In this document: piece after piece, positions 76 to 32,260 of the stretch
Layout: every line of letters starts with the position of its first letter
Numbering within the stretch: position 1 is the first letter of the stretch
Source of the DNA: Anaeromyces robustus
Taxonomy: Eukaryota > Neocallimastigomycota > Neocallimastigomycetes > Neocallimastigales > Neocallimastigaceae
NCBI GenBank assembly: GCA_002104895.1
Contig: MCFG01000343.1
Location: 1 to 32,500 of the forward strand
DNA: 32,500 bases
Direction of reading: 5' to 3'
Made by a program: the position numbers and the translations under genes
Notes under the pieces: model-generated
What the model was told of the DNA's origin: nothing
Seen by the model: the letters and a program-made list of their open reading frames with translations, nothing else
Databases searched by the model: none

Positions 76-1471
76 AGTGAATATTGAGTAATGAAATCAA
101 TGTAATCTTCCTTGAAGTAATCATTGGTTGGGAAAAGAACTGGTTCATTCTTTCTATTAGCACGGAATAAAACTAAAGTTGGGAAACCATCAATCTTACT
201 GAATGGTGATTTACCTGGAATATCGTTTAAGGTGGCATCAATATAAGCAATTGTAATTTTATCCTTTGGTTCGGCTTCAGCAGCAATTTCTCTTAAGATT
301 GGAATAGACTTTTAAAAATAATAAGATTAAAGATTAAAAAAAAAAAAAAATATTAATATATATTATATTTATATGATTAAATTATATGATTATATCAATT
401 GTTAATATATATGTATTATTATTATCTATTCTTATTATATATTATTTGTGATTATTATTATTATTATTATTTATTTATTGATTGATTGATTAATTGATTT
501 ATTTATTATTTATTATTATTTACTATTATTATTTATTATTATTTATTATTTATTATTTATTATTATTTATTATTTATTATTTATTATTATTTGTTATTTA
601 TTATTATTCTTATTCGTTATTTATTATTTATTATTATAATTATTATTGATATCTTACTTCACGACATGGTTTACAATATTCAGCATGGAATAAAACAAAG
701 ACATCTTTAGTAATATCTAAAGCTACTTCTTCGAAAGTGTAAGCATTCATTCTAACAAGATAATCATTTGGTTTACGTGGTTCAAGATTTTCACTCTTAT
801 AGTAAGATTTAATATTACCATCATAATAATCATTAATATACTTTTGAATGAATTCCTTATCAAAACCATCAGAATCATCATATGGATACTTTAATTTAGT
901 TTTTGGATCTTGAATAAGAACAGCTGGCCATTTCTTTTCAATACCAAGTGAATCAGTACTATCACCATACTTTTCAATATCAACATAAACAAAGTTCATC
1001 TTTAAACGGTATTTACGAGCAATTTCTTCAATATTTTTACCAATAGTATTAGCATCTTCTTGATTATCATGGAAGAAATAGAATAATGGTAAATCTAAAT
1101 CTAAATAATTGTTATAGTTAGAGTGAGATAAACTATCCATTAATGGTAATTTTGCCATTTTAATGAATCTTTCTAAAGCATCTTCAGTAATTGTTTCAGT
1201 AAAGACATCATTCTTTTCAGTATTGAATTTTTTTATGAAAATTGTACTATCTAATTCAACACCATTCTTTTTGGCAAGATTTTCATCAGTACTGTAAACA
1301 AATTTATAAGTATCACGTAATTTGTGTGATACTCTGTATAAAGATTGATATTCTTCAGAATTCTTACTCTTAATGAAAGAAGCAATAAGAATATCATTTT
1401 CTTTCTTTGCTTCTTCAAGAGTTTTTTCATCTACTTCAACAAGAGATGGTGAAGTGAAACTATATAAATTA

Positions 1472-6763: not shown

Positions 6764-9444
6764 TTAATATTCAATTAAAGCACATCTGTAGTAAAATTCA
6801 TTAACATATTCACATCTGAAACCACTTTCACAACATGGGGAAGCATCTGGATAATTCAAACCACCACATGGATAATAACCTTTAGTATATTCCTGACAAA
6901 CCTTTGGAGTTGGAATAATACTTACAGTAGTAGTAGTTGTTGTAGTAGTTTTTGGTTTAGTAGTAGTGGTAGACTTTTTAGAAGAAGTAGTAGTAGTAGT
7001 AGTTTTTTGGGCTTTTTTAGTAGATGTTGGAGTAATAGTAATAGCTGGTGAATTTGGATCATATGGAGTACACATGTAATAAAATTCATTTTGATATTCA
7101 CATCTGAAACCAGATTCACAACATGGAGAAGCATCTGGATAATTCGAACCACCACAAGCATAGTAACCTTTAGTTACACTATCACAAACCTTTGGAGTTG
7201 GAATGACAATGGAAATAGAAGTAGTAGTAGGATTTGTGGTAGTAGTAGTAGTTTTCTTAGTTGTAGTAGTCTTCTTAGTTGTAGTAGTAGTAGTAGTTTT
7301 CTTAGTTGTAGTAGTTTTCTTAGTAGTAGTAGTAGTTTTCTTAGTTGTAGTTGTCTTCTTAGTTGTAGTAGTAGTAGTTTTCTTAGTTGTAGTAGTAGTT
7401 TTCTTAGTTGTAGTAGTAGTAGTAGTTTTCTTAGTTGTAGTAGTTGTCTTCTTAGTTGTAGTGGTAGTAGTCGTTTTCTTAGTAGTGGTAGTAGTAGTTT
7501 TCTTAGTAGTAGTGGTAGTAGTAGTAGTCTTTGGTTTTGTAGTAGTGGTAGTAGTAGTTTTCTTAGTAGTGGTAGTAGTAGTCTTTGGTTTTGTAGTAGT
7601 AGTAGTAGTAGTAGTTTTTGGCTTAGTAGTAGTAGTAGTGGTAGTAGTGGTAGTAGTAGTCTTTTTCTCTTTTGGTTGTTCATGAAGGAATGGATAATCA
7701 TAACCTTTAGCCTTATATTTAGCGGATTCATTTAAAATATCATTTTTATTGAAACCGTAGTTTTTACAAGCAACATCGAATTTAGTACTAATCCAAGCCT
7801 TAAGACTACTTTCAACAGTATTTTCAAATTCAGTTAAAGAAGAAGTATTTCTAGTACCAGATTTATTAATTCTTCCTGGAAGACTACCATTCTTAGAAGT
7901 ATAATCTTCAGTGACATATGGTTTAAGGAAATGTTTTAATTCATGAATATGTGGATTTAAAAGATCTGGATTAAAAGCAGAAACTAAAATTTCACGAACA
8001 ATATTCTTAAATCTAGTTTTATTATTGTGAACTAAAAGTTTAACAATTGGAATATTCATTTCCCAATCAGCAAAAGTGTAATTAATTGGGTTATTACCTC
8101 TAGCATTTTGACCCCATTGATTAACACCACCACTACCATCTTGGTTAGCACCTTTATTATTCCAATGACTTGCAGATAAATTCATACCAAAAGTATTATC
8201 ATAATCATAATAAATAACAGTCCATTTACCATCACTTTCTCTTTTATAGAAATTAAGATTATGACCATTAATTAAAAAGTGATCAAAGGAACCAATTAAC
8301 CATTCAAAAGCAAGATATTTAAGGAAAACATCAACTTCAAAAATTTTTTCAACTTCTTGAATAGTTTTACAATTATTGATATCGGTAACAAAGTTCTTAA
8401 AAACAGTCATATGTTGATAATCATCATTAGCATTAACACATTGATAAACAGAACTTGTTTTGAAGTTAAAACCTCCACTTTTACATTGGTAAAGAGTAGT
8501 AATTTCTTCTTCAGTTGGACTGAAAGTTTGTTTAATCCAAGATGGCTTTACAGCATCCATTAAAGTATATAAACCCCAGAATTCACCATTCATATAAAGT
8601 CTAGCAAAAGAAGCTTGAATTGATGGTACACCCATTCTGTTAGCGATATCACAACTAATCTTTGAACGAAGTTTAGTCTTATCATTTGGATCTGGTCTAA
8701 GTCTAATATTTTTACGACCTAAGAATTTTTTATCTAATTTAATGTTGAATCCTACTTTATCATGAGAACGAGCATACATACCACCAGTTTTGAAACTAAC
8801 TTTTTCATATGTTTTTTCTTGACTGAGTTTTTTTTTTTTATAATTGTAATATTAAATTAATAATACGAAAATAATAATTATATATTTTCATATTAATAAT
8901 AATTAAATAATAATATTATAACAAAGATATATATTAATAATAATATTGATTAATAAATGATATTAAATAATTATTTAAATATATTTAATTAAAAAAATAT
9001 TCTTCATATTTTAAATATACATATATATATAGATATAGATATATTTCATTTACCCATTCCACTTCATTACAATTTTGGCATTTTCATATTTAAAATCTTC
9101 CTTTCCACCATAATTATTTTGGACATCCATAACACTAACTTGAGCTTTCTTAATTAAATTGTTAACTTCTGAAGTTGGCATAGTGACATACATGTCAACT
9201 ACCTTTTGTTCGATTTCATCAAATGTTCTATTTAAATCATTTAAATAAGTTGAACAAAATACAGTAGCGACTATAAAGTAATAGATATATATATATATTA
9301 ATATTAGTTTTATAATTATCGTTTTGTATATAAATAATAATATATGATATAATGATAATATATATAATATAAATAATTTTATTATATATATATATATATA
9401 TATTTATATTTACTTAAAAATGGTAAAAAGAATAAACCCTTCAT
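6764..9444 (-). CDS. Secreted CotH-type kinase-like protein with T/K-rich linker and two CBM1-like domains
   Basis: Exons on the minus strand are 9444-9414, 9270-9054 and 8822-6764, encoding 768 residues. The short first exon encodes the signal peptide (MKGLFFLPFLIATVFC). Residues about 60-450 form a CotH domain with GGMYARSHDKVGFNIKLDK, KNIRLRPD, the SFDHFLINGHN segment (Asp263) and the metal-site string DYDNTFG (Asp289, Asp291). CotH proteins are atypical protein kinases of spore coats and are abundant in anaerobic fungi. A Thr/Lys linker follows (about 470-627), then two cysteine domains (628-667 and 724-768). Each has CGG, CCESGF and NEFYY-x-C spaced as in fungal CBM1, plus an extra cysteine at the front. 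The protein probably sits on plant fibre or in extracellular complexes. Kinase activity and substrate are inferred, not shown. Confidence 0.93.
6767..7189 (-). repeat. Tandem pair of CBM1-like cysteine domains
   Basis: The copies at 7189-7070 and 6901-6767 encode about 40-45 residues each. They are nearly identical, sharing TKGYY-x-CGG, NYPDASPCCESGFRCEY and NEFYY. The N-to-C spacing of NEFYYRC matches the NPYYSQC end of classical CBM1, and the Tyr three residues before the CGG cysteine matches the cellulose-facing aromatic. Six cysteines per copy instead of four suggest an extra disulfide. I see no fungal dockerin (CBM10-type) signature, although that is the domain usually expected in this phylum. 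Confidence 0.75.
7190..7661 (-). repeat. Thr/Lys linker minisatellite
   Basis: The coding strand is built of ACT/ACA/ACC runs broken by AAGAAA and AAACCAAAA, giving Thr runs of 4-12 alternating with KK or KPK. Such linkers in secreted fungal enzymes are usually O-glycosylated spacers. All six frames stay open across it because of the codon repetition, so reading frames on the other strand or in other phases are shadows. Confidence 0.9.
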
Positions 9445-16051: not shown

Positions 16052-16897
16052 ATGAAAACTAGATTATTACTTTTAATTTTTGTTTTAATTATAGCATCTC
16101 CTATAGTTTCAAAGATGACTATTGAAATTGTAACTTTTAAAGATTATCTTATGGAACATTACAGTAAAAAATTAAGTGAAGATATAATTATTAAATGTTC
16201 AAATACTATTTATGAATATGAAAAAGAATGTATTCCTGTTAATAGAGAATCATTTTCATCTACTAAAATTGATAGTGAATGTAAAAGATTAGCTTCCGAA
16301 AATTGTAAAAATTTTTTTAAAGACATTAAAGGTTCATTAATTGATTGTGAAAAAGTACCAGAAAAAGATTTAAATAAAATTATAAATTATTTCAAAGAAT
16401 CTAATGAATTAATAGAAATGTATTGTACTAAAAATGAAAATAATGAATATTGTCCATTACATAAACTTAAAAATTTTAGTGGACTTTCTATTGTAGAATA
16501 CTTTTCTCAAAATTCTCCATTTAAAGATGATGTTTCAGATAAAGATGTAAATAATGTTATATATGAAATATGTAAATCAAAGAAATGTTATGATTCAATT
16601 ACTAAATATAATATTTTATTTGAATCCATAGAATATGAAAATGATACTGAAGAAATTATAAAAAATATTAGTAGTAATTTTGGACTGTATAAAGAAATAC
16701 ATGAATTTTCATATTTTCAATATTTGAGATTTCGTACGATTGTTACAGATATTTTAAAATCTGAACAATGTAAAGCTTTAGTTAAAATTTCTGAATCATC
16801 TGGTAAAGTTGCTAGTAAGGCCTTTCCTAATCAAATAGGTATTGGTTTTTTAATTGCAACATTATCTTTATTTTTAGTATTTATAAATGCAGATTAA
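16052..16897 (+). CDS. Secreted, probably GPI-anchored ten-cysteine protein (paralogue 1)
   Basis: Single exon, 281 residues. The ATG follows an A-rich leader and opens a clear signal peptide (about residues 1-20). The mature part has exactly ten cysteines at 49, 60, 77, 85, 99, 125, 134, 174, 179 and 240. The best conserved strings are YCTKNENNEYCPL (124-136) and CKSKKC (174-179). The last 20 residues are hydrophobic (GIGFLIATLSLFLVF) and end three residues later, as in a GPI-attachment signal. It is the first of three genes in the same direction with the same cysteine spacing. I do not recognise the family and see no catalytic motif. Cysteine pairing and a role as surface protein, adhesin or protease-resistant coat are inference. 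It could instead be anchored by a plain C-terminal membrane segment. Confidence 0.9.
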   Translation: MKTRLLLLIFVLIIASPIVSKMTIEIVTFKDYLMEHYSKKLSEDIIIKCSNTIYEYEKECIPVNRESFSSTKIDSECKRLASENCKNFFKDIKGSLIDCEKVPEKDLNKIINYFKESNELIEMYCTKNENNEYCPLHKLKNFSGLSIVEYFSQNSPFKDDVSDKDVNNVIYEICKSKKCYDSITKYNILFESIEYENDTEEIIKNISSNFGLYKEIHEFSYFQYLRFRTIVTDILKSEQCKALVKISESSGKVASKAFPNQIGIGFLIATLSLFLVFINAD

Positions 16898-17047
16898 TAA
16901 ATTAAATTATTTCTTTGCTTGCATATAAAGGGTGAATATAAAATTATAAAATAATTTGAATATATTAATATGTGTAACATATATAATGTAATATAACAAT
17001 ATATACATATATTAAATAATATGTTATATATATACCACATACACATA

Positions 17048-17167
17048 ACAATATATATATATATATATATTGTTGCATGTTGTGTATAACATGTAACATA
17101 CATAAACATATTAATATATATTGCATGTGTATACCATGTAATATATATAAACATATTATAATGTATA
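17048..17167. repeat. TA-rich palindrome followed by a 48-bp imperfect tandem repeat
   Basis: Positions 17048-17074 read ACAA-(TA)n-TTGT and are self-complementary. The pair 17073-17120 and 17121-17167 both start TTGCATGT and share ATGTAA and ATAAACATATTA at the same offsets. The block is probably an expanded simple-sequence region in or after the 3' UTR of the upstream gene. Confidence 0.6.
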
Positions 17168-17297
17168 CCTATAAATATACATACTGTTATGTGTATATAT
17201 ACTGTTATGTATTATAGAATACCCCAAAAATACATGAATATTATATTTATATTATTCTATGTATTATAAAAATATATAATTTATATTATTATTTTTA

Positions 17298-17353
<56 letters not shown>

Positions 17354-18337
17354 GTCTTTATCTTTTTTGAATTATTTGGTTTGCTTTATTGATTTATGTA
17401 AAAAAAAAATTGATTCATACATTCCTCCATGGAAATTGGGTTCATTACACATAATTATAATATTCGGTTTTCTTGTATAAATATGTATTTTTTAATTTAT
17501 TAATAATAATGATGAATAAATAATTAATTAATATATATAAATGTAAAAATCATATATTAAAAAAAAAAATAAAAAATAAAAAATAAAAAATAAATAAATA
17601 AATAAATAAAATCAAATAATTTTTAAAATTAATTAATATATATATATAATAAGATTTTTTAATATTTAGTTATAGATTAATCTTTAAATTTTATTTTTCA
17701 TTTTTATTTTTTAATATTACTTTTATTAAAAAAATTAAATGAAATCATATTAAATTTTATGATATTAATTCAAATTAAAAATAGTTATGAAATATTATTA
17801 TATAATATTTATTAATAATACATTTAATCTATACTTATATTAATATTACAAATTTTACATAGTCATATTAAATATTTATATAATCATAATATGAATATAG
17901 ATATAATGAAATTAAAAATTATAATAAATATATATATATATATTTTTTAAAAAATTTAGTTTAAGAAGTTGTAATATTAATATCTTAATTCTAATAACTT
18001 TTTTTTTTGTTTTTTTTTTAATTGAATAAGTATTTAATTCTTATTTTTATAAACATTTTCAGCAATTAATATCTTACTTCAAACTTAAGGATACTCTTTT
18101 GTCTTTTTTATTGGTATTATCTTTATTTAACTTTATTATTATAATATAGGTATTAAAATAGTGAAAAATATATATATATATATATTAAAATAAAAAATAC
18201 ATTAAAATAGAATAAAAAAAAAAACCGAAATAAATATCATTGATTAATAAAAATGAATATCAAAGGTATAAAGTAATACAGTAACAATAATAATAAAAAA
18301 AATGATAAAATCCATTCATTCACATACACTTAAATCA

Positions 18338-18656
18338 TCAATACTTAAGTAAAGCAAAATTATTAGCATTTCTCTTATTAAGCTTTCATAATGTGTAATC
18401 AATATTTTCAAACTCAATCATAATAATAAATTCAATTTTTTTGTTTCATATTATGCTATTATATATATCTACCATTTAAATTACTGCAATTATATATATT
18501 ACATAAGTAAATACAAACTTTAAAAATATGATAATGATCACTATTTTATTATCTTTTTATAAATAATTGTAGAAATTAAATAATAATTTAACAATCTTCC
18601 GATAAATTAACATGATTATTTACATATGGTTGTAACTCTTTAATATTCAAGAGCTC
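18338..18656 (-). pseudogene. Possible decayed coding fragments of unknown origin
   Basis: On the minus strand 18656-18588 reads ELLNIKELQPYVNNHVNLSE followed by Asp, Cys and a stop. Positions 18421-18338 read MIEFENIDYTL, then a stop, then KLNKRNANNFALLKY in the same frame before another stop. The residue mix is that of an ordinary protein rather than the Ile/Asn/Tyr/Lys noise of the surrounding AT DNA. I cannot name a family, and no complete gene can be traced. Chance is a serious alternative. Confidence 0.2.
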
Positions 18657-18833
18657 TCACCCAATTTTTCTATTTTTTAATAAATTATCAATATTTTTTA
18701 TTAAAATATTAAAATTTTTTGACTTAAACTATTAAAAATTCTAAAAATATGATTTTTTTATAGAAATATTATTATTATTATGGATTTCACATTAATGATT
18801 ATATTAATAGATAAGCAAAATAAAGATTCTAAC

Positions 18834-18864
<31 letters not shown>

Positions 18865-18973
18865 ATAATAATATTTTAAATTTATTATTTCTTTACTTTT
18901 TTTAGCCTTTTATGTATATTTAGGATGAATTTGTTTTACGTTACACAAAAATTATTGAAAATTCTAAAAGAAT

Positions 18974-18975
18974 AA

Positions 18976-19066
<91 letters not shown>

Positions 19067-19069
19067 ATA
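18974..19069. repeat. AAAT microsatellite, about 24 units
   Basis: An almost uninterrupted AAAT/AATA tetranucleotide array of about 96 bp, the longest simple repeat in the window. Shorter relatives occur at 19260-19320 and 24645-24673. Confidence 0.95.
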
Positions 19070-19871
19070 TGAAAGTAAATAAATATATAAATTAATAATT
19101 TAAAAATCTTTACGTAGCATTATTAATATATTTTTATATATTTATATGTTTAATATATAATAATGTACTGATTTCTATTTGTTGACTAATGAAAAAAAAA
19201 AATCATGAAGTATATAAGAAAAATTAAATCATGTAATTATATTAGATTAGATAAATAAGTAAATAAACAAATAAATAATAAATAAATAAATAAATATAAA
19301 TAAATAAATATATTTAAATAAATGAATAAAAAATAATCGAGTAAAGAAATAAATGATATGAAAATAATTTTTTTTTTTTTAAAAAATAGTTATAATTATT
19401 TTAGTAGTTATAACTTTTTTTTAATATAAAATTAGATTTCAAATTACTTTTTTTTTTCTTTTTTTTTTTTTTTTTTTTGAATTAAAAAAAAAAGAAGAAA
19501 AAAAAAGTGAAGATAAAAAAAATATATATATATAAATAATAAAACAAAATAAAACAAAACAAAATAAATAAAATAAAATAAAATAAAATTAAATTAAAAA
19601 TAGAAAAAAAAAATCTAAATTAAAAAAAAAAATAAATAGAAAAATATACGTTATATAGTATTATGCTTTATTTTATATTAATAAAACAAAACAAACAGAA
19701 CAAGCAATAAAAAAAAAATATAATAAAATAAATTATAATACTATTAATAAAGTTAAAAAAAAAACTTTTTTAAAAGAATATATAATAATTATTTTTATAA
19801 ATTATATCAAAATATTCCAGAATCTTTGTTTTAATAATTTATAAAGAATAATAATTGAAAATATATAATAA

Positions 19872-20690
19872 ATGAAAATTGTTATTTTTGTATTAAATTT
19901 AGCAGCTCTTGCAACTTTAGTTCTTTCTTTTAATTCAAATGGTATATTATTGCGTAGATTATATGGAGATATTGATGCAGAAGAATCAATAGTTAAATGC
20001 AATGAAAATGCTATGGATTATATAAATGATTGTGTTCCTTCGGATAAGAATTCTTTTTCCAAGGATAATATTGATAACTTATGCACAAAAATCCATTCAG
20101 AAGAATGCCAAATTTTTTTAAGTAATCCAATGGTTAGTCTTGACGGTTGTGAAGATTTACCATATATAAAAAATAAAAATGTTAGTTTAGTATTTTTTAA
20201 ACTTATTTCTTCAAATACAAAATTACATTGTACTAAAGATGAAAATGAAGAATATTGCCCAATGAGTAATTTTAATTTATTTAAAGGTTCCAATCCTCAG
20301 GACTTTGATATTTTTAATACAATACCAAAAGATGATGTTTTTAATAAAACAATGCCAAATATTTGTAAATCTAATAAATGTTATCAAGCAACTTATGATT
20401 ATTTTTCATATATAAAAAATTATACCGAAGTTGAAACTGATAAGTTAATTGGATTTAAAGGAAATAAAAATTTTACTACTGATTTACATAATTTTTCATC
20501 TAAAGTAATTAAATACTTGAAAGCCGAAAATTGTACTATTAAGGCAGAAGCTTCAAAAAGGAAATATGAAACAATAATGAAAATGAAATATGAAAATGAT
20601 GAAAGTGGAGCTTTTTCTAATAAAATGAATTATTGCTTATTCTTTTTAATAATTTTATTCATATCAGTCTTTTTTTTAAATAGTAATTGA
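19872..20690 (+). CDS. Secreted, probably GPI-anchored ten-cysteine protein (paralogue 2)
   Basis: Single exon, 272 residues. The signal peptide is MKIVIFVLNLAALATLVLSF. The ten module cysteines are at 43, 54, 71, 79, 93, 120, 129, 165, 170 and 221. An eleventh, Cys255, lies inside the hydrophobic C-terminal tail (CLFFLIILFISVFFL) that would be removed if this is a GPI signal. Diagnostic strings are HCTKDENEEYCPM (119-131) and CKSNKC (165-170), directly comparable with paralogue 1. Five spacings (C1-C2, C2-C3, C3-C4, C4-C5 and C6-C7) equal those of paralogue 1 exactly (10, 16, 7, 13, 8). Several N-x-S/T sites (for example NVS at 103, NKT at 158 and NYT at 183) suggest N-glycosylation. Same orientation and similar size to paralogue 1 point to tandem duplication. 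The function is unknown to me. Confidence 0.9.
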   Translation: MKIVIFVLNLAALATLVLSFNSNGILLRRLYGDIDAEESIVKCNENAMDYINDCVPSDKNSFSKDNIDNLCTKIHSEECQIFLSNPMVSLDGCEDLPYIKNKNVSLVFFKLISSNTKLHCTKDENEEYCPMSNFNLFKGSNPQDFDIFNTIPKDDVFNKTMPNICKSNKCYQATYDYFSYIKNYTEVETDKLIGFKGNKNFTTDLHNFSSKVIKYLKAENCTIKAEASKRKYETIMKMKYENDESGAFSNKMNYCLFFLIILFISVFFLNSN

Positions 20691-20792
20691 TTAGATAGTT
20701 AAGTAGATAATAAATATATATATAAAAAAAAAAAGAAGAAAAAAAAAAGAAGAAGAAAAAAAAGAAAAAGAAAAAGAATATATATAATAGTA

Positions 20793-20825
<33 letters not shown>

Positions 20826-21128
20826 CAAAATTAAAGCCTATTAAAAGTGATATTTTTTAATCAACAATATAGTATTGATTATTATTAATATTATATAATA
20901 GCTATTTTTTTTTCTTTTAAAACAAATTTTTAAAATATTTCAAAAGTAAAAATAATGAAGATTGAAAAAAAAAAGTATTTTGTAAAATAATCAATAAATG
21001 ATATATATAATATAGTATAAAAAAAGATAATTGATATGATATAATAATCAACCAAAGTAAAATAATAAGCAAGGAAGTAAATAATGTTACTTAAAAATAA
21101 TTAAACGAATTATATAATATTTATAATC

Positions 21129-21187
21129 CAAATATAATATATTTGAGAAAACCTATTACTTATTTTATATCAAATATAATATATTTG
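21129..21187. repeat. Near-palindromic 17-mer present twice
   Basis: CAAATATAATATATTTG occurs identically at 21129-21145 and 21171-21187, start to start 42 bp. The outer seven bases on each side are self-complementary. It could be a paired binding site or part of a decayed repeat; the sequence alone does not decide. Confidence 0.6.
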
Positions 21188-21442
21188 AATATAATTTCTA
21201 TAATTTATTACAATTTTATTTATTATTAAATTAAAAAAAAAATTATTTAGTAAAATAATATACAAATAATGTAAAAAAAAAAAATATTTTGTTATATAAA
21301 AAATTATACCATTAAACCAAATTATTAATTCATTTTTTTCAAAAGCCTCTTTTTTTTTTTTTTTTTTTCCTAATATATATAATTTTTTTTTTTTTTTTTT
21401 TGGAGTGTTTTATGTTACGTTACATATTTTTAATGTATTAAA

Positions 21443-21488
<46 letters not shown>

Positions 21489-21771
21489 GGATTTAAAATA
21501 CATTTTTATACTTTAAATGAAAGAAAATGTATATACATACATTAATATTCACATAGATGTATTGTACCTCATAAGTTATATTAAATTTTTTATATTAAAA
21601 TTTTTTGACCAAAAAATTGGTAAATGTTAAAATATTATTATATTTAATAGAATTATATATATATAATAGAAAAATATAATATAATATTTAATATATGATG
21701 ATATTATTTAATATTATTTAATATTTATTTTGTTATTTTTTTTTTTACTTTAATTTCATATATATATAAAA

Positions 21772-21804
21772 GTATTAAGCATTTTTCAATAAAATGCCTA
21801 ATAC
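21772..21804 (+). repeat. 14-bp stem-loop followed by a T tract
   Basis: GTATTAAGCATTTT (21772-21785) pairs with AAAATGCCTAATAC (21791-21804) with one A-C mismatch and a 5-nt loop. A C and ten T follow immediately. The conserved GC-containing core (GCATTTT / AAAATGC) stands out in this DNA. The shape looks like an RNA 3' end or a small inverted-repeat element. Confidence 0.55.
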
Positions 21805-22351
21805 CTTTTTTTTTTAAATATTTTTTAAAGATTTAGTTATTTAAAGTCGTCATAAAGAATTTCTTTCTTTATTTCTTTTTATTTTTTTTTTTTTTTTAAA
21901 AAAAAAACTTTAATCGATAATTAATTAAAAAAAATTTTTTTTTTTTTTTGAAAATATATTTTCTAATTTTTTTTATTTAAATATAACTAATAATACTATT
22001 AAAGTTTGAGAAATGAGACAAAAAAAAAAAAAAAGATAATTTAGTTATTTTGAACAATAAAACTCATTTCAATACATTTTTTGATGATTTAATATCATTA
22101 AATCATAAATAAATGGAGAGAATATTTAATAATAATTAACAATAAAAAGTTTATTAATAAAATATTATTAATTATTATAATTAATCATATTTTTATTTTT
22201 TTTAAATGTATAATTCATTTGATTTTTAATTAATTTTTTGTATATCAATAAAATATTATATATATATTAAGAAAAAAATATTTTTTTTTATAAACAAATA
22301 AATAAATAATTAATATATTTTTAATATATTCATATATTAATAATTAGACCT

Positions 22352-22430
22352 TCATTTATATCCGAGGGTGTAGAATTTGCACTTTGGCTTTAAATGCTCG
22401 CAAAGAACGAGTCCAATCTGCTTAGTAGAA
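22352..22430 (-). other. GC-richer island: coding relic or structured RNA
   Basis: This stretch has a base composition unlike its surroundings and C/G-ending codons unlike the neighbouring genes. On the minus strand it reads STKQIGLVLCEHLKPKCKFY, then TLGYK and a stop, and the frame stays open for about 20 codons further upstream without an ATG. CTACTAAGCAG just before ATTGG looks like a branch point plus 3' splice site, so it could be an old terminal exon. It also contains the perfect small hairpin CTCG-CAAAGAA-CGAG. It does not fold as a normal tRNA. Family unknown. Confidence 0.3.
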
Positions 22431-22552
22431 ATAAATAACAAAATATAATTTATTCCAATACATTCATATGCTAAGAGTATATAAAAAATTTATACTAAAA
22501 TCACCCTCTATTATGTATTTATTAATTTTAAACATAAAAATATCTTATTAAT

Positions 22553-22593
22553 AATATAACCTTAAAATAATAAATAATATTTAAGGTTATATT
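22553..22593. repeat. Hairpin with 14-bp perfect arms
   Basis: AATATAACCTTAAA (22553-22566) pairs perfectly with 22580-22593 over a 13-nt loop, about 370 bp upstream of the third ten-cysteine gene. Confidence 0.65.
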
Positions 22594-22647
22594 TAAATCT
22601 TTCCATATATCAATATTTAATTATTTAAATTTGTATAATGAAATAAA

Positions 22648-22759
22648 CTTAAAATCTTAACTAATAAAAAAAAAAAAAAAAACATATTTAATATTTTCTT
22701 ATAACCAAATTTTAATAATAATTAAATATTTTTTTTTTGTTATTAGTTAAGATTTTAAG
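22648..22759. repeat. 20-bp perfect inverted repeat bounding a 112-bp element
   Basis: The left arm CTTAAAATCTTAACTAATAA (22648-22667) is the exact reverse complement of 22740-22759. The pairing continues inward, after one mismatch, as an A run against a T run. Size and symmetry fit a small MITE. I see no clear target-site duplication. It ends about 200 bp upstream of the start codon at 22958. Confidence 0.7.
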
Positions 22760-22957
22760 AAAATATTATTATATCAATATTTTGGCCTTTTTTTTTTTAT
22801 TATTACTTTATTTTTTAAGAAAAAAAAAATTTTTTTTATAATTTTATATATAGTATAGAATTTCAAAAATAATATATATAAAAGAAAAAAAAAAAAGATG
22901 AATATATAAAATAAATTTTATATATATTATTTTACATATATATATATATAGTGATAA

Positions 22958-24508
22958 ATGTTATTATTAATTATAAATCTATTATTTTTAGTTTTTCGTG
23001 CCATAGCACAAAATTCAGAAATAGTTTCAGATAAATGTTTTGATGAATTATATAAATATTCTAATTGCTTTAATGTAGTGAAAAATATAAATAATAATGA
23101 ATTTACATCAGAAAATATTAAGTCATTATGTGAAAATTTAAAATCTAAACTATGTGATGATTTTATTAATAATATAAATTCTATCAATTCTGATTGTATT
23201 TCAAAAAATGATAATGATACTATTGATAATATTTTTGCTATTTATATTTTAAGTTTGAAAGATTTTTATTTAACATTTTGTGTTAAAGATCATAATGGAA
23301 ATCAATGTCCTCTTTCTAATCATTTAATTACTAATATAGAAATACTTAAAAATTATAATGATAATGAAAATAAAAATCAAATAAATAATGAAAAAGAAAA
23401 TAATAAAGAAAAAAGAAATGAAAAAGAAAATGGAAATGGAAATGAAAATGGAAATGGAAATGAAAATGGAAATGAAAATGACAATGAAAATGGTAATAAA
23501 AATGATAATAAAAACCTAAAAGAAAATCCAGTAGCAGATAATATGATAATTAATTTTATTAATGATTGTGAAATTGAAAAATGTAATCAAAGATTAATTG
23601 ATTTAGATTCTATTAAAACAGTTCTTTTTGATATATCAAAAATTTCTGAAAATTCTGCTACTTCTTATCAAAAATTTATTAAATATTATAAATATGATAA
23701 ATGTTCTTCTATACGAAGAGATAATAAACTTTCCGAAGAATGTCATTCAGAATTTGAAAAATATAAAAGTTGTTTAAATGGTATGAATATTTCAAAAAAA
23801 AGTATTTCTATTTCAATGAAAAATTATTGTGAAATTTTTGAAACTAATAAATGTAAAGAATTTCTTGAAGATATGTTTTTAACAACTACTAATTGTATCC
23901 CAGATTATTACTATTCTGTAACTAATAATAATAACAATAGTACTTATTTCATTGATGATGATATTGATTATAATGATAATAATAGTACTTATTTTATTGG
24001 TGCTAATAATAATAATAATAATAATAATAATGTAAGTGAATATGATTTTATTACAGGTTTAGATATTTTAAATACAAGACTTGCTTATTTAACTTATTGT
24101 GCTGGTAATAATAAGGGAAGTACTTGTGCACTTTCTAAATATTTAATTAGTAATTATGATAAACTGGAAGAAAATTTTGATCCAACAGAAATTTCAATGG
24201 ATGTCTATATTGCTATAGCAAGTGATTGTAGAGAGGTTCAATGTACTAAAAGAATTCCTAACTTTGTAAATTTATCCAATTCTATTGATAAAATTAGTCA
24301 TTTTATCAATCAAGATAATACTACTTCTTATTCATTATTATCCAATAAAGAAAAATCTTTGTTTAAATATTATCTTAATCATTTTAAAGATAATCAATGT
24401 GGTTCTTTTGAAGAATATAGTGATATTTCAATATCATTTAAAAAATATTATCATTCTAATATAACATTAATGATAACATTTATATTTGCTTTTATAATAC
24501 TATTTTAA
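22958..24508 (+). CDS. Secreted, probably GPI-anchored protein with two ten-cysteine modules (paralogue 3)
   Basis: Single exon, 516 residues. The signal peptide (MLLLIINLLFLVFRAIAQ) is followed by two copies of the module. Copy A has cysteines at 27, 37, 58, 66, 80, 108, 117, 204, 209 and 249. Copy B has them at 262, 272, 291, 299, 313, 381, 390, 424, 429 and 481. All twenty cysteines of the protein are accounted for. Spacings C1-C2 (9), C3-C4 (7), C4-C5 (13), C6-C7 (8) and C8-C9 (4) are equal in both copies. Copy A carries a Glu/Asn/Gly-rich insert between C7 and C8, and copy B an Asn-rich insert between C5 and C6. The C-terminal SNITLMITFIFAFIILF resembles a GPI signal. The gene looks like an internal duplication of a paralogue-1/2-type ancestor. 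No known domain is recognised. Confidence 0.9.
   Translation: MLLLIINLLFLVFRAIAQNSEIVSDKCFDELYKYSNCFNVVKNINNNEFTSENIKSLCENLKSKLCDDFINNINSINSDCISKNDNDTIDNIFAIYILSLKDFYLTFCVKDHNGNQCPLSNHLITNIEILKNYNDNENKNQINNEKENNKEKRNEKENGNGNENGNGNENGNENDNENGNKNDNKNLKENPVADNMIINFINDCEIEKCNQRLIDLDSIKTVLFDISKISENSATSYQKFIKYYKYDKCSSIRRDNKLSEECHSEFEKYKSCLNGMNISKKSISISMKNYCEIFETNKCKEFLEDMFLTTTNCIPDYYYSVTNNNNNSTYFIDDDIDYNDNNSTYFIGANNNNNNNNNVSEYDFITGLDILNTRLAYLTYCAGNNKGSTCALSKYLISNYDKLEENFDPTEISMDVYIAIASDCREVQCTKRIPNFVNLSNSIDKISHFINQDNTTSYSLLSNKEKSLFKYYLNHFKDNQCGSFEEYSDISISFKKYYHSNITLMITFIFAFIILF
23426..23515 (+). repeat. In-frame GN/EN minisatellite
   Basis: Hexanucleotide repeats of GGAAAT and GAAAAT type encode alternating Gly-Asn and Glu-Asn (residues 157-186 of the two-module protein). 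They form the core of a hydrophilic loop between cysteines 7 and 8 of the first module. Confidence 0.9.
24005..24031 (+). repeat. In-frame AAT run (poly-Asn)
   Basis: Nine consecutive AAT codons (Asn350-Asn358) in the loop between cysteines 5 and 6 of the second module. They lie just after a duplicated NNSTYFI string (residues about 326-332 and 341-347). Confidence 0.95.
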
Positions 24509-25193: not shown

Positions 25194-25838
25194 TTAATAG
25201 TAACCTTGTCCTTGTTGTGCTCCATAATTTTGTTGTGCTCCATAACCTTGTTGATCATAACCTTGACCATAAATTTGTCCTTGTTGTACTCCATAACCTT
25301 GTTGATCATAACCTTGACCATAGCCTTGTCCATAACCTTGATCAAAACCTTGATTATATCCTTGACCATAGCCTTGATCATATCCTTGACCATAGCCTTG
25401 TCCATATCCTGCGTCATATCCTTGACCAAAACCTGGATTCATACCTCCTTGTGGAACAAAACCTTGTTGTTGTTGTTGTTGTTGTTGTTGTTGATTAAAA
25501 GGAGGATTATTTCCTTGTTCTTCAGCAAATTTATTTTGTTTTTCACCTTTATTTTTATCTTTATCTTCCTTCTTTTTCTTTTTTTCATCATCTTTATATT
25601 TATCTTTATCTTTACCTTCTTTGTCTTTACCTTCCTTTTTCTTTTTCTTTTTTTCTTCATCTTTATCTTTATCTTTATCTTTACCTTCTTTATCCTTACC
25701 TTCCTTTTTCTTTTTCTTTTTATCTTCATCTTTTACCATTTTTTTAACTTTAGTTTTCTTTTTGTCGTCATTGTAGGTGTGAGTATTTTCATAATCACTT
25801 GAATCACTAGAATCACTGGAACTTGAATCAGAACTCAT
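25194..25838 (-). CDS. Low-complexity protein: acidic Ser head, Lys-rich repeats, polyQ, Gly-Tyr-Gln tail
   Basis: Single exon, 214 residues, no signal peptide or membrane segment, so probably cytosolic or nuclear. Residues 1-15 are almost only Ser and Asp (SSDSSSSDSSDSSD), a typical casein-kinase-2 target. Residues 26-105 are Lys/Asp/Glu-rich and contain a near-perfect duplication of KKKKKKEGKDKEGKDKDK (39-56 and 63-80). Residues 116-125 are ten Gln, all CAA. Residues 126-214 repeat GYGQG/GYDQG/QQGYG. The layout resembles yeast Sup35 NM in composition (Q/G/Y-rich part plus charged part) but in reverse order and without the GTPase domain. Phase separation, RNA binding or stress granules are guesses from composition only. 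Reading frames on the other strand across it are shadows. Confidence 0.8.
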   Translation of the reverse strand: MSSDSSSSDSSDSSDYENTHTYNDDKKKTKVKKMVKDEDKKKKKKEGKDKEGKDKDKDKDEEKKKKKKEGKDKEGKDKDKYKDDEKKKKKEDKDKNKGEKQNKFAEEQGNNPPFNQQQQQQQQQQGFVPQGGMNPGFGQGYDAGYGQGYGQGYDQGYGQGYNQGFDQGYGQGYGQGYDQQGYGVQQGQIYGQGYDQQGYGAQQNYGAQQGQGYY

Positions 25839-29176: not shown

Positions 29177-29244
29177 ATAAAATACTATCATTTATCAATT
29201 AATTATCGTTATTATCATTATTAAATAATAATATATAATCAAAT

Positions 29245-31923
29245 ATGATTAAATATACATATATATTCATTTTTGTAATATTTATTCAATATATTTATAC
29301 TAAAACCATAGAAATAAATTCATGGAAAGAATTATTAGAATACAGTCCAAATGAATCAAATGATGAATATATTTTTTTATTAACATCGGATATTACTATA
29401 ACATCAAATTCAATAGACTTATTAAGTAAATATTCAAGTATTACAATTAAAGGAAAAGAATCAAAAAAAAGGATTGTTTGTTCTGGAAATGATAAACAAA
29501 CATTATTTTATTTTTCTAATAAAAGTAAATCACTTGATTTTACATTAGAAAATATTCAAATTAGTTCTTGTAATAGTAATCAAATATATGTTGAGGGGTC
29601 TAATGTTAGTGTTTATTTAATTAATAGTGAATTTTCATTAAATAAAAATTCTATTATAGAAGCTTTAAGTGTTAGCACTATATCAATAACAAATTGTATT
29701 TTTAGGTAAAATATAAATAATATAACATAATTCTATCTTTTATAGAATAAAAAAAATGGAATAATAATGATATCAAATAAAATATATAAGTGAAAAAAAA
29801 AATTAATGAAAAAAAATGAAATAATACTGAAAAAAACATTATACATATATATATCTTATTATTCATTATTAATAGTAATAATATAAGTGTTAAAGAATCT
29901 AAACCCTCAATATATATTGAAAATTCTAATAAATTCAAAACAAAAGTAAAAATTGAAGATAGTATAGGAATTGGAAATAATAATAAAATAAATAATAGTA
30001 CACTATCTGCTGGTTGGGGTTATTTTTCAAATTCAAATCTTCAATTTAAAAATATAACATCAGATGGAAATAGTAATAATTATTATGGAGGTAAGAATTA
30101 GATAATATAAATAATTATTAAAATTAAAATAAAGTTTAATAATAATTTTCTCTAAAATTATTTTATAGCTGCTTTTAATATTAACAGTTGTGTCGGGTCT
30201 ATTAAAGATTCTGAATTTAAAAACAGTATTTTCAGTGGAAAGGGGTTAATATATCAATATTGTAAATAAAAATATATATATTTAATTTTTTTTTTTTATA
30301 ATTTATAATTTTAATGTTTTATATTTTTAAAATAAATAAAATATTTTAATAATAGTCCTATTATAATTTTTATTTTATAACAAAAAATAATTAATTTAGA
30401 TTCAGAAATAGAGTATGGATAATTTTTTTTTTAATTTTTTTTTTAAATAAAATGGTTTAATAAATAATTGATTATTTTAAATTATTTGTTTTGTAGAATT
30501 TATAATACAACTTTTCATGGTAATCAAGGGTATGGAACTGGTGTATACTATACGCATGGAAATAATCCAGATATCCCTCTTCAAAATAAAAAATCTAATA
30601 TAAATGAATGCCATTTTTTCAGTAAAAATTAAACAATTATATAAAAATATATAATTAATATAAAGTCTCATAAAAATATATTAATAATTATTATTATATA
30701 ATATATTATTAATTTAATATTCAAACATATATTATAAGATAATACTAGTGTAAATAAACAAAAAACTTGTATATTTCATATTGATGGTACTCAAACAGTA
30801 AATATCAATAATAGTTTTTTCAGTAATATAACGGATATATCAAAAGGATCATGTTTTCAGGTTAATAATAATTCATTAGTAAGTTTAAATAATTGCAAAT
30901 TCGAATCTATATATGGAAATGACAGTGGAGTATTTGATTCAGGAGATGATACCAAGGTTGAAATTAAAAATTGCATATGTTAGTTTAAGCCATTTACATA
31001 TATATAATAAAAAAAAAAGTTATATAATATTTACTAATACATATATATTATTAAAAAAAAAAGTTAAAAATATATATTCTGATATAGGGGCTATTATTAA
31101 TTCTAATAATGGAAATAGTATTTTAGTTGAAAATACTTACATTGAAAATTCAGTCTCTCAAAAAGGTTTAAAAAATATTAATAAAATAATAATAGAATAA
31201 TATTCTTATATATATTTATCTAATCTATTATCACTAAAATTATTATTATCAATAATCAATAATTTAGCATTATTTTATATGAATGAGTATAATAAAAAAA
31301 CAATTGCAACATATAGAAATATTACAATTACTGATAGTATTGGTATAAATATAAAGAATGTTTTTTTTATTCTATTTTATTATTTTTCATTCATGATTAA
31401 TTTTTATAAATTATTATATATATATATATATAGGTGGTGAAGGCTTATTATATCTATCTGGAAATACATATGAAAACTCTAAAGTTAGTTTTAACGTTAC
31501 AAATAGTAAATTTATTAATAATGGGTATCAATTATCGTTAATATATAATAAAAGTGTAGAATCTGCACCAGTTATTAACATTAATGATGATGGATATTCT
31601 GTAAGTTATAATTTATTAATAATAATAATAAATATTTTATAAAAAGAAAAAATTAATAATAATAACAATATTATTATTATAAAATTAATAATGATATTAA
31701 ATTATCATAGGCAATTTTTATTCACAATTGCCAATTTATAAATAATACTGTCAATATTAATAATAACTCTGCCGGTAGTGGTATACTTTCGTTGAATCTT
31801 GATATAAAAAAACCTGTAATATTTTCTAATTTAAAATTTATTAATAATACAGTTAACTCTTTTGGTGGTGGATTGTAATAATTATTATTATATTATTATT
31901 TATTATTTATTATTTATTATTTA

Positions 31924-31959
<36 letters not shown>

Positions 31960-32260
31960 CAGTTAATATTAATTATTATTATATCATAAAAGATATATAA
32001 GTAATAGTTTATCTTCAAGCTATGGAATTACTGATATAACTATAAAAAATATACTTTTTGAAGGAAATAATTCAAAAGGTTATGGAGGAGGTTTATATAT
32101 AGAAGACATAGTTCAAAATGAATATAGTATATTGAAATCATTTAAAATAACAGATTTAACTTTCAAAAATAATAATGTTAATACATATGGAGGTATCTAT
32201 ATATGATTACTGACTGTTATTATTAATACTTTTATCATTATTATTGATTATTGATTATTG

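Follow-up and report, generated by a model that had tools for sequence, protein, structure and literature searches.

Three neighbouring genes in a 32,500-nucleotide stretch of Anaeromyces robustus DNA (GenBank assembly GCA_002104895.1, contig MCFG01000343.1, positions 1 to 32,500, here called the window) carry a ten-cysteine module and raise the question of what kind of protein is built on it. The genes, numbered 1 to 3, are intact reading frames on one strand. On balance we favour the view that they encode secreted, most likely glycosylphosphatidylinositol (GPI)-anchored surface proteins, in which disulfide bridges would frame a helical scaffold whose loops tolerate inserts and may serve for display.

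The cysteine positions define four modules in the three genes (Table 1; cysteines are written C1 to C10, and loci elsewhere in the genome carry the word contig). From C1 to C10, the successive gaps are 10, 16, 7, 13, 25, 8, 39, 4 and 60 in gene 1; 10, 16, 7, 13, 26, 8, 35, 4 and 50 in gene 2; 9, 20, 7, 13, 27, 8, 86, 4 and 39 in the first module of gene 3; and 9, 18, 7, 13, 67, 8, 33, 4 and 51 in the second. An earlier note, made from the letters of this DNA alone, had described four such modules with these spacings and with equal C3-C4, C4-C5, C6-C7 and C8-C9 gaps, and the cysteine positions bear it out on both points. The secretion signals and hydrophobic C-terminal tails that it saw in all three genes likewise hold, as judged by hydrophobicity only; an eleventh Cys of gene 2 lies in the tail.

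With gene 1 as query against the genome that the window comes from (70.2 Mb, 769 contigs), gene 2 was found at E 6.6e-22, together with places on other contigs, and because of this match the likeness of the modules is not a matter of chance. Queries with gene 2, gene 3 and four relatives lengthened the list of family places. A hidden Markov model (HMM) of C1-C7, seeded with 44 modules picked by Cys pattern, matched 67 modules in 64 frames among the loci fetched from this genome (domain independent E-value, iE, <1e-3); these and the other copy numbers are lower bounds, since they cover the best-scoring candidates and the part of the listed places that was fetched. Building a module HMM was a check proposed by the earlier note, and a model of 40 of the 44 seeds, with the window rows removed, recovered all four window modules: gene 3 module 1 at E 7e-19, gene 2 at 4e-18, gene 1 at 3e-17 and, split over two pieces, gene 3 module 2 at 9e-10 and 7e-4, all local HMM E-values referring to small frame sets. 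The best of 482 reversed frames scored E 0.018 with this model. Masking Cys in the target frames left 53 HMM matches, every one to a family frame, with the three window genes at E 1e-5 to 1e-4. The full ten-Cys pattern occurred in 39 of the 64 family frames, compared with 0 of 12,800 shuffled family frames and 0 of 360 non-family frames, and the C1-C6 half pattern in 47, 16 and 0 of the same sets, respectively. Because the patterns were derived from the family itself, these counts indicate specificity and are not an independent discovery.

The ends of the family proteins point to the cell surface. By our own reading of the hydrophobicity values, 59 of the 64 frames begin with a signal-like stretch. 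GPI-anchored proteins have a hydrophobic C-terminal stretch that follows a small-residue triplet; a hydrophobic GPI-like end was present in 46 frames, and in 42 of these it was preceded by such a triplet. Hydrophobicity and tail pattern thus suggest that the family proteins are most likely secreted and GPI-anchored.

The earlier note had recognised no named family, and profile searches agree with it, giving no strong match to an annotated domain. Scanned whole, the three window proteins gave no Pfam hits at E<=1. Against 19 modules, Pfam gave 23 families (best E 0.0064) and NCBIfam 11 (best E 0.0052), each matching one module of the 19. In PDB profile searches, a four-row profile had one hit at E 0.59 and a 19-row profile none at E<=1. 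Among 131 pattern stretches from viral contigs and 34 from prokaryote genomes, none was related. The literature search, which left most subscription journals outside, gave no paper among those listed that deals with this kind of module or with ZinT in an anaerobic fungus, and an earlier description of the module is possible.

A role as a scaffoldin/cohesin or dockerin part was considered and rejected. The CBM_10-type domain (PF02013) is the dockerin of anaerobic fungi and, in keeping with such a fungus, is abundant in this genome, with 150 places scored out of 683 candidates and 0 in 14 control genomes. The window genes have no Pfam hit to it, none of those 150 listed places lies on contig C272, which holds a cluster of the family, and the proteins are short.

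The ten-Cys module is a composite of a six-Cys helical unit and a four-Cys extension. The earlier note had taken all ten cysteines as the unit; that pattern is present, but it splits at C6. The subtilase at contig C138:16366-20142 carries five units that end at C6 by their cysteines, three of which matched the HMM at iE<1e-3 and two at iE 0.035 and 0.012. With these five units as query, 90 places were found in the genome at E<=0.01, chaining into 62 gene regions. In 47 of the 62, a Peptidase_S8 match (131 such places were listed) lies just upstream on the same strand, and array and protease were established by reading to share a frame in some of these regions. Among the 15 remaining regions, contig C193 has a Pfam S8 match, and contigs C200 and C419 are subtilase-like by eye; as the frames on contigs C200 and C419 are absent from the S8 list, the S8 counts are low. 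No convincing Pfam match was found in the six-Cys part. That S08 proteases have expanded in anaerobic fungi has already been published (PMC8778642), although another statement in the accessible part of that paper gives S08A numbers as low; a Cys-rich C-terminal repeat goes unmentioned in that part, and the six-Cys arrays are an addition to it.

These arrays bring in the main rival explanation, an adhesive or wall-binding role, which we regard as a real but tentative possibility. The six-Cys unit would bind a wall polymer or a ligand on host or plant surfaces and tether the secreted subtilases, the ten-Cys proteins would be wall or adhesin parts, and the inserts would be incidental. The 47 regions with an upstream protease speak for it, as do the neighbours of the arrays, which in the frames read are Thr-rich stretches or sequence resembling hevein or, by eye, ricin B. 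The family itself includes a protein with three Chitin_bind_1 domains by Pfam (contig C128:1919-3307). Set against this, Pfam gave no carbohydrate-binding family match in the module, and an alignment of 19 rows is near-invariant only at the Cys and one Pro, unlike a conserved binding site. A display scaffold and adhesion may both be true. Besides the contig C128 protein, members that depart from the usual architecture of the family include a protein with a hevein-like end by eye (contig C232) and a protein that has repeats of Thr and Pro and no Pfam hit (contig C310). In the subtilase-like frames at contig C200:25977-30998 and contig C419:2502-5129, ricin-B-like repeats and domains resembling hevein come after the six-Cys arrays, again by eye.

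The bridges of the six-Cys unit can be proposed from cysteines that are lost together. Among 104 aligned six-Cys segments, in which gapped rows proved by eye to be mostly cut frames or alignment slips, we read true Cys loss in three, each a double loss: C3 and C6 at contig C44:104372 and, in a separate gene, in one unit of contig C59:108502, and C2 and C4 at contig C507:4324. Because the losses come in the pairs C2+C4 and C3+C6, they suggest bridges C2-C4 and C3-C6, which would leave C1-C5 by elimination. An AlphaFold model of the first half of gene 1, ending shortly after C7 and made with three window rows, reached a predicted local distance difference test (pLDDT) of 78.4 and a predicted template modelling score (pTM) of 0.67 in the best of five models, with helices at 3-20, 30-40, 43-50, 52-55 and 64-82 and a small hairpin. 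The earlier note had raised the prospect of modules predicted as unfolded; the first half was not (pLDDT 78), while the model of a whole module was of low confidence.

The near-fixed gaps separate loops that vary in length. A looser pattern, allowing 6-7, 11-15 and 7-9 residues for C3-C4, C4-C5 and C6-C7 and any length from 12 to 2000 for C7-C8, gave 52 modules, in which C3-C4 was 7 in 51, C4-C5 was 13 in 44 and C6-C7 was 8 in 50. The gaps that bear inserts are C5-C6, C7-C8 and C9-C10, and C7-C8 spans 16 to 1518 residues (in the gap table, an extra Cys misplaced the anchor of the row contig C291:765). Low-complexity inserts occur in each of the two gene 3 modules. In two relatives of the window genes, arrays of ZinT, a bacterial zinc-chaperone domain (PF09223; Pfam E 4.9e-94 and 9.5e-79), lie between C7 and C8, the site of one of the gene 3 inserts, and all ten ZinT matches found in the genome fall in these two family proteins. 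The domains are joined by His-rich or Glu/Lys-rich linkers, and in both carriers C8-x4-C9, C10 and the tail follow the array. For the parts behind the arrays, window gene 3 is the best match (E 3.9e-6 and 3.7e-5, against a best of 1.8e-4 in 400 shuffles), and the motif [DN]DC-x4-CNxR was found in 8 of 482 fetched frames, namely the two ZinT-carrying proteins, gene 3 of the window and five close relatives.

The two arrays differ in their histidines. A DH..H[FL]H pattern occurs in all four ZinT domains of the contig C1 protein and in none of the six of the contig C766 protein. One type of C1 domain aligns with solved ZinT across the DH..HxH residues, which we take to be its metal ligands, and one C766 domain aligns without them. 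The contig C1 relative may capture zinc. Measured against the first, the six C766 domains show 97.6-100% identity; they are therefore recent copies, perhaps repurposed. One bacterial ZinT relative was found, from Salipaludibacillus (39% identity).

Put together, the preferred reading runs as follows. The six-Cys helical unit, closed by the bridges C2-C4 and C3-C6 and, as the pair left over, C1-C5, would form the frame, and the second part, C7-C10, would lead to the membrane anchor. Because the bridges would hold the frame, the C5-C6, C7-C8 and C9-C10 loops would be free to drift or to take inserts, and the fungus would display sequence outward in them, low-complexity sequence in gene 3 and ZinT arrays in two close relatives. 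Surface display as the function is what these sequences suggest. A bolder version seems possible but doubtful to us: the module would be a disulfide-locked, GPI-anchored chassis dedicated to surface display in anaerobic fungi, and its C7-C8 loop would take whole foreign domains. In one lineage, ZinT arrays captured from bacteria, with their His-rich linkers, would trap zinc at the outer surface, and gene 3, with its long low-complexity insert at that site, would represent an intermediate step.

Several observations weigh against the preferred reading. The bridges are deduced from three loss events, the other four half-module models ranged from pLDDT 72.5 to 46.0, so that the five spread from 46 to 78, and the AlphaFold model of the whole gene 2 module was poor (pLDDT 53, pTM 0.41); a fold search of the PDB with this low-confidence model found no match (best E 9.5). 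Because that model is poor, a defined fold for C7-C10 and an exposed C7-C8 loop are assumptions of the reading. A hydrophobic end is missing from 18 of the 64 frames, some of which are cut by the edge of the fetched stretch or perhaps by introns. The median C7-C8 loop is 27.5 residues long, and a known folded domain sits in it in two of the 64 frames. When the tail was kept, the contig C1 protein's C-terminal match did not clearly beat shuffles (4.3e-6 compared with 1.6e-5), and the tail-free comparison was adopted for that reason. Finally, classical metal capture by the contig C766 protein is unlikely, its six ZinT domains being without the DH..HxH histidines.

The earlier note had spoken of a local tandem family. 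Genes 1 and 2 are indeed tandem sisters, but the family is genome-wide and gene 3 belongs to another group. In a midpoint-rooted tree of 61 rows with many weak forks, genes 1 and 2 pair together (99/94, bootstrap/Shimodaira-Hasegawa-like approximate likelihood ratio test) outside the gene 3 group (98/88), whose 13 rows include both gene 3 modules, the contig C690 cluster and the ZinT carriers; the two carriers group together (100/96). Nine rows with fewer than 100 filled columns, including all five pieces from contig C138, were left out, and the contig C766 row was kept at 97 columns.

The family changes fast, the median identity outside the Cys being 16%, and this part of the earlier note's account of diversifying pressure or low constraint stands; positive selection is unproven. 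The ratio of nonsynonymous to synonymous rates (dN/dS) was computed for six pairs of relatives, the window genes not among them, and pairs with one aligned codon were unused. The youngest pair, contig C291:45031 and contig C291:49384, differs by 73 nonsynonymous and 8 synonymous changes, a naive dN/dS of 2.26. Under the local A+T-biased base composition the ratio is 1.5-1.6 (P 0.12-0.15), with no significant excess, and we reject positive selection as shown because the naive value is inflated by that bias. Invariant Cys on very divergent sequence, this youngest pair and the single-contig clusters on contigs C291, C690, C272 and C478 are what would be left by a surface antigen or recognition family that rumen protozoa, bacteria or host factors press to diversify, yet the pair does not rise significantly above neutral and the five other pairs lie at 0.5-1.3, so we consider that explanation improbable. 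We give slightly less credence still to structural filler, secreted proteins constrained at the level of the fold alone and with no specific ligand. Ratios of 0.5-0.8 in four of the six pairs, varied loop lengths and low-complexity tracts fit it, but dozens of copies are retained with tight spacings and a recurrent tail pattern, and the ZinT arrays stay in frame in two copies. Taken as a whole, the interpretation in the earlier note is partly supported.

Known systems offer partial parallels to the favoured display scaffold. The surface lipoprotein AdcA (PDB 7jj9, 7jja), to which the contig C1 ZinT pair aligns at E 9e-31 (7jja), places ZinT at the outer membrane face through a lipid anchor, as the two ZinT-carrying relatives, and not the ZinT-free window genes, probably do; it differs in being bacterial, with ZinT fused to another zinc-binding domain, whereas in the fungal relatives the arrays are set within a Cys-framed module. 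Cys-rich surface domains of fungi, CFEM among them, are likewise secreted, Cys-framed, often GPI-anchored and found in large families, but CFEM has eight Cys with other spacings, and its Pfam model was not among the hits of the window proteins or the 19 modules. The gut-fungal SBP-domain proteins of PMC5168858 also place bacterial periplasmic-type binding domains at the fungal cell surface; in the accessible part of that paper the domains are of SBP type and either accompany transmembrane helices or sit on receptors, and neither ZinT nor such a Cys module is mentioned.

Table 1. Coordinates of the ten-cysteine genes, their modules and loops in the window, and of two ZinT-carrying relatives
Feature	Position	Strand	Description	Basis
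Gene 1	16052..16897	+	281 aa with a single ten-Cys module, a start resembling a signal peptide and a hydrophobic tail	
Gene 1 module, C1 to C10	16196..16771	+		Cys positions, HMM match, model of first half
Six-Cys unit C1-C6 of gene 1 module	16196-16426	+		Cys positions
Gene 2	19872..20690	+	272 aa with a single ten-Cys module; gene 1 is its tandem sister	
Gene 2 module, C1 to C10	19998..20534	+		Cys positions; low-confidence AlphaFold model
Gene 3	22958..24508	+	516 aa; two tandem ten-Cys modules; in group holding ZinT carriers	
Gene 3 module 1, C1 to C10	23036..23704	+		Cys positions, HMM match
Gene 3 module 1, C7-C8 insert	23309..23566	+	86 residues, N/E/G/K-rich; site of the ZinT array in two relatives	
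Gene 3 module 2, C1 to C10	23741..24400	+		Cys positions, HMM match
Gene 3 module 2, C5-C6 loop	23897..24097	+	67 residues, N-rich	
ZinT carrier, contig C1	113323-116643		1107 aa; four ZinT domains within 921 residues between C7 and C8	
ZinT carrier, contig C766	2565-7778		1738 aa; six ZinT domains within 1518 residues between C7 and C8	

Other features were noted in the window. A CotH kinase-like protein (6764-8779, minus strand; Pfam E 2.5e-42) continues into a long Thr/Lys repeat and two stretches that match the fungal cellulose-binding CBM_1. A thioredoxin-like frame (643-1158, minus strand; Thioredoxin_6 E 2e-14, Thioredoxin E 3.5e-6) ends inside a second thioredoxin part, perhaps at an intron. 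At 25194-25838 (minus strand) a low-complexity protein with an acidic and Lys-rich first half followed by GYGQ-rich repeats had no Pfam hits at E<=1. Short exon-like frames at 29239-32206 (plus strand) show beta-helix-like repeats after a signal-like start and a weak Pectate_lyase_5 match (E 0.022); they may belong to an intron-rich surface receptor akin to the gut-fungal G-protein-coupled receptors described in the accessible part of PMC5168858.

These results locate a domain, missing from the domain libraries searched, at some 120 gene regions in a single anaerobic fungus. The figure adds the 64 frames to the 62 array regions less the three in common (contigs C128, C138 and C232); it counts fragments, refers to the scored places and may include duplicate contigs, as equal scores on the contig pairs C1/C672 and C398/C726 mean that the assembly probably duplicates some stretches. 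In the accessible part of PMC8262932, how proteins are attached to the surface of anaerobic fungi is an open question of the field, raised there with regard to cellulosome attachment. The loop site and the bridge pattern are offered here in testable form, and a bacterial-type zinc chaperone is seen to be re-used inside an apparently membrane-anchored fungal protein.

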